From: Bryobacteraceae bacterium
GTDB lineage: Bacteria; Acidobacteriota; Terriglobia; Bryobacterales; Bryobacteraceae
Direction of reading: 5' to 3'
Assembly: GCA_029975915.1 (NCBI GenBank)
Contig: JARKOC010000250.1
Location: 115,969-179,968 of the forward strand
Length of the DNA stretch: 64,000 nucleotides
Under the pieces are notes generated by a model. The model did not search any database and was not told the DNA's origin. It saw only the letters and a program-made list of their open reading frames with translations. Shown here one piece after another: positions 1,874 through 60,068 of the stretch (the stretch's first letter is position 1; each line of letters begins with the position of its first letter). Both the position numbers and the translations under genes were made by a program.

Positions 1874-2901
1874 TTGCCGCTCTCGATGCGACATATAGCG
1901 TGGGCCGGAATCTCTCGGGCGTAGGCGTCTACAGCCGCGAGTTGGCGTTTCATCTGGCCGCGTCGCATCCAGAGGCTCAATTTCTTCATTGCTTCCGGCC
2001 CCACCGGTTTTTAAGAGGGCTACGTGCGCGCCGGCTTGAGAACGTTTCCGTGAGAATCCTGCTGGACGGCTTGAGCACGTTCAGCGCCGGCATCTTTCAC
2101 GGGCTCAATCAACGGATGCCGGGCTGGAGAGCCAAACGAACGGTCTGTACCTTTCACGACCTGTTCGTGCTCACCGCCGAGTACTCCACGCCGGAATTTC
2201 GCGCCAGATTCGCCGAACAAGCCCGCCAAGCCGCCGCGCGCAGCGACCTGATTGCGTGCGTTTCGAGCCACACGGCGGAAATGGTGGAAGCCCTGCTGCG
2301 AGTGGAGCGCTCACGAATTCGAATCACCCCGCACGGGGTCAGGTTTCCGGATCAAGGGCCCGTATTGGAGCGCGAGAAGTTTGTCCTCCATGTTGGAGCG
2401 ATTCAGAAGCGCAAGAACCTGGTTCGTTTGGTTGAGGCGTTCGAAAGCTCATGCGGACCGGAGTGGCGTCTCATTCTGGTCGGGTCGGATGGGTTTGGCG
2501 CTGACGAGGTCCGGGCGCGAATCGCAGCGAGTCCGGCGCGTGAGAGGATCGAAATCACTGGGTGGCTGGACGATCAAGCGCTCCACCGCCTGTATACACG
2601 GGCTGGCATCTTCGCCTTTCCATCGCTTGATGAAGGATTCGGAATCCCCGTGCTGGAAGCGATGGCACTGGGAGCGCCTGTTATCGCCTCGAACAGAGCG
2701 GCGCTGCCGGAGGTGTGCGGAGATGCCGCGGCGCTCGTTGACCCGTTTGACACCAATGCCCTGGCGGGTGCGTTGATGGATCTTACGAGCCGGAAGGAGC
2801 TTCGAGATCACTTGTGCGCGAAGGGCTTGGAGCGTGCCCGCCAATTCACCTGGGCGCGAACCGCGGAGCTGACTTGGAACATTTATCAGGAACTGATCTG
2901 A
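1870..2901 (+). CDS. GT4-family glycosyltransferase (group 1)
   Basis: A retaining GT-B glycosyltransferase of 343 residues, probably moving a sugar from a nucleotide-sugar donor to a surface glycan. It starts with TTG at 1870, whose bases overlap the stop of the sigma-54 activator (TTGA), so the two are probably translationally coupled. The C-terminal half carries the GT4 pattern: a beta-strand and turn HVGAIQKRKN near residue 175, then EGFGIPVLEAMALGAPVIAS near residue 255, with the E-x7-E donor-binding motif. The N-terminal half contains FHGLNQRMP, as in mannosyltransferase-like GT4s. No membrane segment is seen. Two copies of the GTTCGTTTGG motif (in opposite orientations) lie inside the gene. 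Substrate is unknown. Confidence 0.85.
   Translation: MIAALDATYSVGRNLSGVGVYSRELAFHLAASHPEAQFLHCFRPHRFLRGLRARRLENVSVRILLDGLSTFSAGIFHGLNQRMPGWRAKRTVCTFHDLFVLTAEYSTPEFRARFAEQARQAAARSDLIACVSSHTAEMVEALLRVERSRIRITPHGVRFPDQGPVLEREKFVLHVGAIQKRKNLVRLVEAFESSCGPEWRLILVGSDGFGADEVRARIAASPARERIEITGWLDDQALHRLYTRAGIFAFPSLDEGFGIPVLEAMALGAPVIASNRAALPEVCGDAAALVDPFDTNALAGALMDLTSRKELRDHLCAKGLERARQFTWARTAELTWNIYQELI
2132..2141 (-). repeat. GTTCGTTTGG motif, copy 1
   Basis: Exact 10-mer, seen as CCAAACGAAC on the + strand, inside the GT4 gene and antisense to it (codes AKRT). See the motif finding. Confidence 0.7.
2422..2431 (+). repeat. GTTCGTTTGG motif, copy 2
   Basis: Exact 10-mer, sense strand of the GT4 gene, read as VRLV. 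It is 290 bp from copy 1 and in the opposite orientation. Confidence 0.7.
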
Positions 2902-3225
2902 TCAGCCCTGATCGTCGTCCACGGCGATTTTGAGGGCGCGGAGGACCTTCTGGTCCTGAGAACTCCAACTGATGCGCGCTGTGGCCTCATCGTTTCCAGT
3001 TGAAATTTCCAGTGACCCGCCGGCAGGGGCTGTCTCGTCTTCATCGTCCTCGTCGCGACGGTTGAAGCCGATAGTCGCCTCGAGAACCAGGAAAACATCG
3101 TAGCCGGCCTGCTTGATTTCGCTTATGGCTTCGGCGATGCGGTCGGAGTCAGACAGCGACTCGTTAATCGCGTTGCCAAGCTCGTGCATCAATTCTTTCA
3201 GGCGATCGTCCAAGTTTTCCCTCAC
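2902..3225 (-). CDS. Conserved-looking hypothetical protein
   Basis: A 107-residue soluble acidic protein of unknown function. The N-terminal half (RENLDDRLKELMHELGNAI, then IAEAISEIKQAGYDVF) looks helical. The centre contains an acidic linker (RRDEDDEDE), and the C-terminal half looks beta-rich. It has no signal peptide, membrane segment or recognised motif. The gene is convergent with the GT4 gene: its stop codon (2902-2904) begins the base after that gene's stop. The start ATG at 3225 is the only good one in frame. I do not recognise the family; the complete frame and protein-like composition support it as a real gene. Confidence 0.6.
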   Translation of the reverse strand: MRENLDDRLKELMHELGNAINESLSDSDRIAEAISEIKQAGYDVFLVLEATIGFNRRDEDDEDETAPAGGSLEISTGNDEATARISWSSQDQKVLRALKIAVDDDQG

Positions 3226-3399
3226 CGTCCGGCTATCTCCAGGATACCACCCGGATCAGGCGGCATCCGGAATCCGGCGCGCTGGCCCACGCTCAATCTA
3301 TCGTCAATTCAGGCGGGCCACATGAGCCGTATCCGCGTGAAAGCGGTTTCGCATCGGGAGCGGGGCTGGGATAATGAAAAGAGCGCCGGACACAGCATC

Positions 3400-58567: not shown

Positions 58568-58751
58568 ATCGCGCCGGAAGACGTTCTCGGCTTTACGCTC
58601 CTGAGCGCTGGTGGAGCCGTGCTTCGCCCCGGTTTTCGGTATAGGATCAGGGCATGGTGCGGCGACGGCAAAGCCGGCAATTGCTAAGCTGAAGCCGTTG
58701 CTCCGCCTCTCAAGGCAGGGACGGGGGAAAGCGTCGCAGGAGGTGTTCTCG

Positions 58752-60068
58752 ATGACAGTTCAGAAACTTGGGCTTGTCGCCACGGTTCTCGCGGTTTCGA
58801 GTCTTGCTCAGACTGAGCCGCAGTTTGACCTCCTGCTCAAGGGCGGTCACGTCATCGACGCGAAGAATCGCATCAGCGCCATCCGCGATGTCGCCATTAA
58901 GGACGGCCGGATCGCCGCCGTCGCCGTGAACATCCCGGCTGCATCCGCACTCAAGACTGTCAACGTGGCTGGCCTCTACGTCACGCCAGGCATCATCGAC
59001 ATCCATGTCCACTGCTACACCGGAACCGGCGAACGCAATTCCTATGCCGGCGATCTCAGCGTCTACCCCGACGGATTCACATTCCGCAACGGCGTCACCA
59101 CCGTCGTCGACGCCGGCGGCGCCGGTTGGCGTAACTTCCCCGATTTCCTCGACCGTGTCATCAACCGCTCCCGCACCCGCGTGCTCGCCTTCATCAACAT
59201 CGTCGGCCACGGCATGCGAGGCGGCAAGTTCGAACAGAACCTCGATGACATGGAGGTCAAGCCCACCGCCGAAATGGCCATGAAGCACAAGGGCGTCATC
59301 GTCGGCGTCAAATCCGCCCACTACAACGGCCCCGAGATGGACCCCTTCACCCGCTCTGTCGAAGCCGCCAAAGCCGCCGGCATCCGCGTGATGGTCGATT
59401 ACGGTTCCAACCGTCCCGAACGTCCCCTCTATGACCTCCTCACCAAGGTCCTCCAGCCCGGCGACATTTATACCCACTGTTACTCCGGCCTGCGCGGCGA
59501 GCAGGAGGGCGACACCGGCGGCCCCGGCAAAGCCCTCATCGAGGGCCGCAAACGCGGCATCATCTTCGACGTCGGACACGGCGGCGGCAGCTTCGCCTGG
59601 CGCGTGGCCTACCCGCTGGTCAAGGCCGGCTTCCTGCCCGATTCCATCTCCACAGACCTCCACGTCTCCAGCATGAACTCCGGCATGAAAGACATGCTCA
59701 ATGTCATGGACAAGTTCCTTGCCATGGGCATGAGCGTGGACGACGTCATCGCACGCTCCACCTGGGCCCCGGCGCGCATCATCCAGCGCGAGGACCTCGG
59801 CCATCTTTCCGTTGGCGCGCCCGCCGACGTGGCCGTGCTCAAACTCGAAAAAGGTTCGTTTGGTTTCGTCGACATGCACGGCGCGCGCATGGACGGTTCG
59901 GCCAAACTGGTTGCGGAAATGACCGTGCGCGACGGCAAGGTCGTCTGGGATCTCAATGGCCTCGCGCGCGAACGTTGGGATAAGCTGCCCGCCGGCTACG
60001 GCCCGCAAGGCGACCCCCGCTGGGACGCCTACGGCCGGCGGCAGCGCCGCCCGCCAACGAAACAGTAG
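58752..60068 (+). CDS. Exported amidohydrolase/deacetylase family metallohydrolase
   Basis: A 438-residue amidohydrolase-superfamily enzyme. A Sec signal (LGLVATVLAVSSLAQ) precedes the metal-dependent TIM barrel: GIIDIHVHCYTG (His85, His87), VGVKSAHYNG, IYTHCYSGL, IIFDVGHGGGSFAWRVA and SISTDLHVSS. Closest named group by memory is the EF_0837/AHA_3915 type, often paired with a SelA-like PLP enzyme, as here. AGGAGG at 58738-58743 supports ATG 58752. It lies 18 bp upstream of the SelA-like gene. It contains one GTTCGTTTGG copy. Substrate not known. Confidence 0.86.
   Translation: MTVQKLGLVATVLAVSSLAQTEPQFDLLLKGGHVIDAKNRISAIRDVAIKDGRIAAVAVNIPAASALKTVNVAGLYVTPGIIDIHVHCYTGTGERNSYAGDLSVYPDGFTFRNGVTTVVDAGGAGWRNFPDFLDRVINRSRTRVLAFINIVGHGMRGGKFEQNLDDMEVKPTAEMAMKHKGVIVGVKSAHYNGPEMDPFTRSVEAAKAAGIRVMVDYGSNRPERPLYDLLTKVLQPGDIYTHCYSGLRGEQEGDTGGPGKALIEGRKRGIIFDVGHGGGSFAWRVAYPLVKAGFLPDSISTDLHVSSMNSGMKDMLNVMDKFLAMGMSVDDVIARSTWAPARIIQREDLGHLSVGAPADVAVLKLEKGSFGFVDMHGARMDGSAKLVAEMTVRDGKVVWDLNGLARERWDKLPAGYGPQGDPRWDAYGRRQRRPPTKQ
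59854..59863 (+). repeat. GTTCGTTTGG motif, copy 10
   Basis: Exact 10-mer in the amidohydrolase gene, sense strand, but read in another frame (GSFG) than the VRLV copies. Confidence 0.7.

Follow-up and report, generated by a model that had tools for sequence, protein, structure and literature searches.

What role could a ten-base word have that recurs, letter for letter, ten times within 64 kb of bacterial DNA? The question is raised by a stretch of 64,000 nucleotides from a Bryobacteraceae bacterium (contig JARKOC010000250.1, positions 115,969 to 179,968; hereafter referred to as the window), in which the dispersed 10-mer GTTCGTTTGG had been noticed from the letters alone and predicted to act at the DNA level as an uptake sequence, a Chi-like or FtsK-orienting polar sequence (KOPS)-like signal, or a binding site. 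When both strands were scanned, all ten exact copies were present, eight on the forward and two on the reverse strand, giving a density of 156 per Mb or one per 6.4 kb. This number is 58 times the expectation of a third-order Markov model and 44 times that of a fourth-order model. As judged from the pattern of its occurrence, the word may work like a DNA uptake sequence (DUS), that is, a self tag spread by biased import, and a probability of about 0.45 is given to this reading.

Protein sequence does not explain the copies. Synonymous recoding of the 42 open reading frames (ORFs) of the window with its own codon use gave 0.10 copies on average (at most 2, in 300 trials), and shuffling of synonymous codons within genes gave 0.11 (at most 1, in 300 trials), as compared with the 10 observed. 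All ten copies are located within genes, seven in the sense direction (VRLV five times, VRLA and GSFG once each) and three antisense (KRT twice, QTN once), and the codons GTT, CGT and TTG are indeed poor choices in this DNA (17, 12 and 15 percent of their respective amino acids). The base on the 3' side of the word is T or C in all ten copies, and the base on the 5' side is A or G in nine. Sites with up to one mismatch numbered 19, against a mean of 4.3 in dinucleotide shuffles, none of 100 of which reached 19; the nine sites with exactly one mismatch are the 9-of-10 copy and the two GTTCGTTTGT variants of the original prediction (Table 1), and six more. The word is thus scattered through ordinary genes far beyond chance or protein coding, and not in one amino-acid context only.

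The window carries mutS2, mnmG, rsmG and gyrB, and its GyrB, which is 90% identical to that of Bryobacteraceae bacterium isolate MAG23 (locus L001; genome G001) and 91% to that of G086, the best match among 20 genomes compared (one of which yielded no GyrB), places it by this marker in the Bryobacteraceae, Acidobacteriota. Copies of the word were counted in 150 genomes from the family of G001, with the pattern read backwards as control; the genome-wide tests cover these relatives, and the window data, including the codon-preserving models, 64 kb. The two highest counts were those of the two closest relatives of the window that were found, G086, with 112 copies in 4.5 Mb against 3 for the control, and G001, with 104 copies in 5.3 Mb against 2. 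Next came G131 (63), G143 (62), G058 (57) and G115 (56), followed by G042 (39), G105 (34), G025 (33) and G033 (31), the controls for these eight ranging from 2 to 11. Within the genus of G001, represented by four genomes, G001 and G086 are enriched, while G005 has 7 copies (control, 0) and G004 has 18 (control, 2), ten of which form five pairs 23 bases apart; among other near relatives, G002 gave 22 (control, 7), G003 18 (control, 13), G006 0 (control, 3) and G007 2 (control, 3). The density in G001 and G086 is 20 to 26 per Mb (mean spacing 40 to 50 kb; 27 copies in about 1 Mb of G086, mostly whole contigs), six- to eightfold below that of the window, which if uniform over its genome would amount to several hundred copies or more. 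Therefore, either the species of the window is six to eight times richer in the word or the window is a rich stretch.

These counts bear on the explanation that chance or a preference for certain codons and peptides produced the word. Five of the ten window copies do read VRLV in the same frame, but codon-preserving models give only 0.1 copies, six of six reading frames are used when the copies of the window and G001 are pooled, and the word is enriched genome-wide in two relatives. This explanation is very improbable, and the predicted role at the DNA level is well supported by the same recoding, frame and genome-wide results.

The word is marked by its exactness. Nearly all the information in G001 and G086 lies within the ten bases, followed by weak preferences for A at position -1 and for T and C at +1 and +2, so that GTTCGTTTGG is weakly extended to AGTTCGTTTGGTC in the two relatives. 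By the fourth-order Markov model, exact copies reached 51 times the expectation in the G001 sample and 16 times in the G086 sample, while one-mismatch forms reached 1.86 (window), 1.64 (G001 sample) and 1.11 (G086 sample) times the expectation. Over-representation, taken as observed/expected minus 1, falls from exact to one-mismatch forms about 50-fold in the window, 79-fold in the G001 sample and 135-fold in the G086 sample, the window values for one mismatch and for the fall resting on nine sites, and the exact and 79-fold values of G001 being inflated because its sample was chosen by its copies. Genome-wide, sites with up to one mismatch numbered 435 in G001 (control, 241) and 364 in G086 (control, 169); after removal of exact copies, 331 against 239 and 252 against 166 remained, 1.4 to 1.5 times the reversed control. 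For known uptake sequences, the over-representation at 0, 1 and 2 mismatches has been given as 183, 2.0 and 0.22 in H. influenzae and 392, 4.8 and 0.65 in N. gonorrhoeae, a fall of 82- to 92-fold at the first step (Bakkali, PMC1939737). The steep first step is common to this word and the classical uptake sequences; the positive two-mismatch value is not.

How copies arise could be followed at the seven window sites that aligned to G001 and/or G086 (2132, 2422, 20462, 26051, 32663, 32738 and 59854); 49432, 50265 and 55426 had no aligned relative among the loci compared. At all seven the word aligned without a gap, the differences being substitutions, several of them synonymous. The window has GTTCGTTTGGTG at 26051, where G001 has GTCCGCCTCATC and G086 has GTCCGCCTCGTC, the codons GTC CGC CTC of the relatives being replaced synonymously by GTT CGT TTG. 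At 32663, G086 has the exact word and G001 has CTTCGCCTGG; at 32738, G086 has GTCCGCCTCG (GTC CGC CTC GTC against GTT CGT TTG GTG in the window, again synonymous) and G001 has GTCCACCTCG. One base off are the G001 counterparts of 2422 (ATTCGTTTGG, in a gene aligned at 69% over about 490 bp) and of 59854 (GTTCGTTCGG), and at 2132 and 20462 the sequence of the relative is very different at the word. Since the exact word at 26051, 32663 and 32738 was absent from the remoter loci in the alignments (L002 to L063), the changes at these three sites were probably gains. Uptake sequences are likewise reported to differ from their homologues by point substitution (PMC1939737).

Table 1. Exact and selected one-mismatch copies of the word in the window
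Feature	Position	Strand	Context
Exact GTTCGTTTGG	2132..2141	-	Antisense in glycosyltransferase group 1 gene (1870-2901 +)
Exact copy	2422..2431	+	Sense VRLV, glycosyltransferase group 1 gene (1870-2901 +)
Exact copy	20462..20471	+	Sense VRLV in rsmG/gidB (20237-20857 +), Pfam GidB match
Exact copy	26051..26060	+	Sense VRLV, two-domain glycosyltransferase gene
Exact copy	32663..32672	+	Sense VRLV, glycosyltransferase 4-like gene (32585-33682 +)
Exact copy	32738..32747	+	Sense VRLV, same gene as the 32663 copy, 75 bp downstream of it
Exact copy	49432..49441	+	Antisense KRT, heparinase II/III-like gene (48657-50405 -)
Exact copy	50265..50274	+	Antisense QTN, heparinase II/III-like gene (48657-50405 -), 833 bp from the 49432 copy
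Exact copy	55426..55435	-	Sense VRLA, DUF5107/TPR gene (54002-57499 -)
Exact copy	59854..59863	+	Sense GSFG, amidohydrolase gene (58611-60068 +)
One-mismatch ATTCGTTTGG	9542..9551	-	In mutS2
One-mismatch GTTCGTTTGT	11240..11249	+	
One-mismatch GTTCGTTTGT	49225..49234	-	In heparinase-like gene

Between G001 and G086, the copies are preserved beyond their flanks. A total of 50 G001 copies were taken, from stretches mostly chosen for carrying several copies, and 40 could be placed in G086, the ten without a usable alignment being excluded; 27 of the 40 were identical, about twice the expectation, six were one base off and seven were more changed. Among the 32 sites aligned together (mean flank identity 0.88), 20 were identical, six one-off and six more changed, against 10.8 identical sites expected from flanking 10-mers (P about 4e-4, which serves as a guide only because sites in one cluster are not independent). 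The other eight sites, placed by earlier alignments or because a copy is listed for G086 where its coordinate was expected, comprised seven identical ones and one with two mismatches. A first test had given 18 of 21 identical, a figure biased by the selection of many of the G086 stretches for a matching spacing of copies; in contigs retrieved without this selection, four of five sites were identical, all four from one cluster, and the comparison was then extended to the whole of G086 for most of the remaining G001 sites. Clusters of copies were kept together at L081 (4/4 aligned), L083, L090, L092, L097 and the first two sites of L091, changed together at L085 and L088, and split at L086 (two of three kept), L089, L098 and L099 (one of two each).

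Preservation and point change together bear on the possibility that the word is a relic, either of a once-active tag or of spread repeats, whose copies are now unused and decaying. This possibility would agree with the density of copies in the relatives, six- to eightfold below that in the window, and with the presence of the core inside intergenic repeats in several more distant genomes. On decay, however, one-mismatch forms should dominate, and they stand at only 1.1 to 1.9 times the expectation and 1.4 to 1.5 times the control; the preservation between G001 and G086 is above that of the flanks, and the alignable window copies represent substitutions, not insertions. A relic is thus an improbable explanation.

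The copies are indifferent to gene, frame and strand. The 50 G001 copies comprise 24 in sense and 16 in antisense orientation and 10 between genes, the DNA being 92% coding according to simple codon-based gene calls. In the window, these calls missed the gene at 20462 and put that copy between genes, although it lies in rsmG by the Pfam match of this gene. A role at the RNA level was rejected on the occurrence of both sense and antisense copies. Of 20 carrier proteins scanned, 18 had a Pfam match, and no common function was apparent: the matches include enolase, ScpB, ThyX, a class I tRNA synthetase, carbonic anhydrase, adenosine deaminase and adenylosuccinate lyase. Carriers in the window include rsmG and, with a one-off copy, mutS2. 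Polarity was examined between neighbouring pairs on contigs, using 100 of the 104 G001 copies and 100 of the 112 G086 copies, and none was detected in either genome, as same-strand neighbours made up 18 of the 43 pairs in G001 and 27 of the 66 in G086. Dispersal in both orientations without polarity is also the arrangement of DUS and of the uptake signal sequence (USS). The G001 list is 64/100 forward, an excess left uninterpreted because contig direction is arbitrary.

A recombination hotspot or a signal of translocation polarity, as offered in the original prediction, would be expected to behave otherwise. Chi and KOPS are short asymmetric words over-represented in coding DNA, as is the present word, and the window by itself, with one copy per 6.4 kb and a strand split of 8:2, would suit a Chi-like signal. 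The split, however, comes from a small sample of ten copies, neighbours in G001 and G086 do not agree in strand, the mean spacing in these relatives is 40 to 50 kb, and known Chi sites are shorter than ten bases. Such a signal has little chance of being the answer.

In a scan of 50 G001 and 69 G086 copies for inverted pairs within 90 bases, one exact pair was found in each genome (L087, 9051/9111, in G001; L260, 9359/9409, in G086), and four more G086 copies had an inverted partner with two mismatches. Both exact pairs lie between convergent genes, and long hairpins are predicted with the motif at the base of the stem and about 15 bp of extended motif per arm, the predicted folding energies of the 171-base stretches being -70.4 and -63.5 kcal/mol. 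Inverted pairs of uptake sequences are discussed for the classical families (PMC2346458).

Taken as a whole, an exact and non-palindromic word, indifference to frame and strand, change by point mutation, a steep mismatch profile, ordinary carriers and hairpin pairs between convergent genes match uptake sequences better than the other classes considered. In the mechanism proposed, some component of competence or transformation in this Bryobacteraceae lineage would have a preference for the word in incoming DNA, and fragments with the word would be imported and recombined more often; mutations creating the word would therefore spread while those destroying it would be repaired by import, so that the word would accumulate and turn over in ordinary genes at any place that the protein can accommodate, irrespective of strand and frame. 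Both the import bias as driving force and the existence of a receptor are inferred. A ComEC domain was detected in 10 of 11 genomes searched, including G001 and G086, and its presence permits uptake but does not support it. ComEC loci have been linked with recombination in abundant soil bacteria in a population study (PMC7305173).

A number of observations weigh against an uptake sequence. The density is low as compared with classical DUS, both in the window (156 per Mb) and in the relatives (20 to 26 per Mb), and ComEC is also present in relatives without enrichment. Two-mismatch forms show no excess, being at 0.67 (window), 0.76 (G001) and 0.80 (G086) of the expectation, and the exact word was found in a relative at only one of the seven aligned window sites (32663, in G086). 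In 400 kb sampled from the 80% relative G002, one copy and no other 10-mer of comparable enrichment were found, and a dialect of the word in this relative was rejected. The copies are also strongly clustered: gaps of less than 1 kb numbered 15 in G001 (1.9 expected) and 17 in G086 (2.2 expected), and 3 of 9 in the window (P 0.12), the clusters falling within about 2 kb. Such clustering would be expected if several sites were bound simultaneously, and is not part of the classical uptake distribution as described in PMC1939737. Because of the low density, the clustering and the absence of a two-mismatch excess, the word is not filed as DUS or USS.

The same clustering leads to the main rival, also among the roles first offered: a site for an intracellular DNA-binding protein, either a nucleoid or condensation factor or an intragenic regulator, which would act at two or more nearby sites under direct selection. 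Two or three copies often lie in one gene in mixed relative orientation, cluster members often share their state between G001 and G086, and exact matches are strongly preferred, all as such a protein might require. On the other hand, some clusters are split between the two genomes, and the copies are not at promoters, all ten in the window and 40 of 50 in G001 being genic. Six of the seven aligned window sites are inexact in G001 or G086, which would be odd for a regulon or a fixed architecture, and the carriers scanned share no function. A binding protein of this kind is considered less likely than uptake, and is the strongest of the alternatives.

As an uptake-like word, GTTCGTTTGG resembles the DUS of the Neisseriaceae (a 10- to 12-mer with dialects) in being a non-palindromic 10-mer on both strands of genes and intergenic regions, in its steep fall from exact to one-mismatch forms, and in its occasional inverted hairpin pairs between genes. 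It is different in sequence, phylum, clustering within 2 kb, lack of a dialect in the one 80% relative sampled, and density, which is roughly 5 to 40 times lower. An uptake sequence would be expected in hundreds to thousands of copies per genome. In N. meningitidis and N. gonorrhoeae, each genome has about 1,900 DUS 10-mers (PMC3630211). With the USS of the Pasteurellaceae (a 9- to 10-mer), it shares the difference from homologues by point mutation and the lack of orientation bias (PMC1939737), but its sequence is unrelated, its density is lower, and in G001 and G086 it has, instead of strong flanking modules, weak preferences at -1, +1 and +2 only.

Related forms of the word were observed in other genomes of the family. 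In G042 (L101-L105), the word stands at the centre of tandem units of 47-49 bp, tgtccgaaaatgggattagGTTCGTTTGGtatctccgggggcgcca, up to five in a row, and all 16 copies examined were intergenic by simple gene calls. Repeats with ggattggGTTCGTTTGG or gaattggGTTCGTTTGG are found in G143 (L106-L109), where they are often 40-60 bp apart, and in G025 (L124/L136/L148); the repeat core is common with G042, while the flanks differ among the genomes. The word has other extensions in G131 (AAGTTCGTTTGGCAaaa; L114-L120) and G105 (AGTTCGTTTGGTAAAA; L121/L139), and G004 (L111-L113) carries at several genome places short arrays of GTTCGTTCC and GTTCGTTTGG with a period of 23 bp.

In the window, two parS-like sites, GTTCCACGTGAAAC, lie 28 bp apart at the end of rsmG (20836-20849 and 20864-20877), just upstream of ORFs 20936-21706 and 21690-22574, probably parA and parB by position alone. 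The cumulative G-C skew reaches its maximum at about 20-21 kb, beside these sites, and declines steadily between 42 and 53 kb and once more up to 64 kb, its sign at the sites being the reverse of that usual for an origin. An origin-proximal function of the word, considered from mnmG, rsmG, the parS-like sites and gyrB in the window, was rejected: in each relative, a single copy lies in the part that aligns to the window (43 kb for G001, 29 kb for G086), where the window itself has six and four copies, respectively; the G086 copy is at window site 32663, and the G001 copy is at none of the window sites. In 80 pooled gyrB loci (L001-L080), CTAAATTATA occurred 45 times near gyrB against 0.1 expected and the DnaA-box-like CTGTGGAAA 127 times against 15, which may reflect a promoter in common and the proximity of an origin. 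Two records, L007 (Arcobacter sp.) and L062 (Bordetella parapertussis), have GyrB 77% and 70% identical to the Bryobacteraceae protein of the window, and their titles therefore look wrong.

Among openly licensed papers, none was found on such a word in Acidobacteria, and among the matches listed for literature containing the letters of GTTCGTTTGG, none was on bacterial genome repeats by title. Literature on uptake, transformation, competence or over-represented motifs in this phylum yielded instead a Neisseria genome paper, the soil population study cited above (PMC7305173) and a paper on abundant octamers, which mentions two chromosomes of Acidobacteria solely for their lack of these octamers (PMC2843746).

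The clusters suggest a variant of an uptake system in which paired sites matter. A more specific and rather doubtful version would be a third, independently evolved uptake word, in the Acidobacteriota, with sites acting in close pairs on a single fragment of gene size; selection or drive would then build up clusters in place of the scattered single sites of the Neisseriaceae and Pasteurellaceae. So far, two families, both proteobacterial, are known for sequence-specific DNA uptake. If the word is indeed an uptake sequence, it would represent a third origin, in an abundant soil phylum, and provide an independent case for the debate on drive versus selection; these little-cultured bacteria would be naturally competent and favour their own DNA, and the word could serve as a short tag in the transformation of a group that is difficult to manipulate. 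Should the word instead be read by an intracellular protein, it would mark a genome-wide system of intragenic sites so far without a name.

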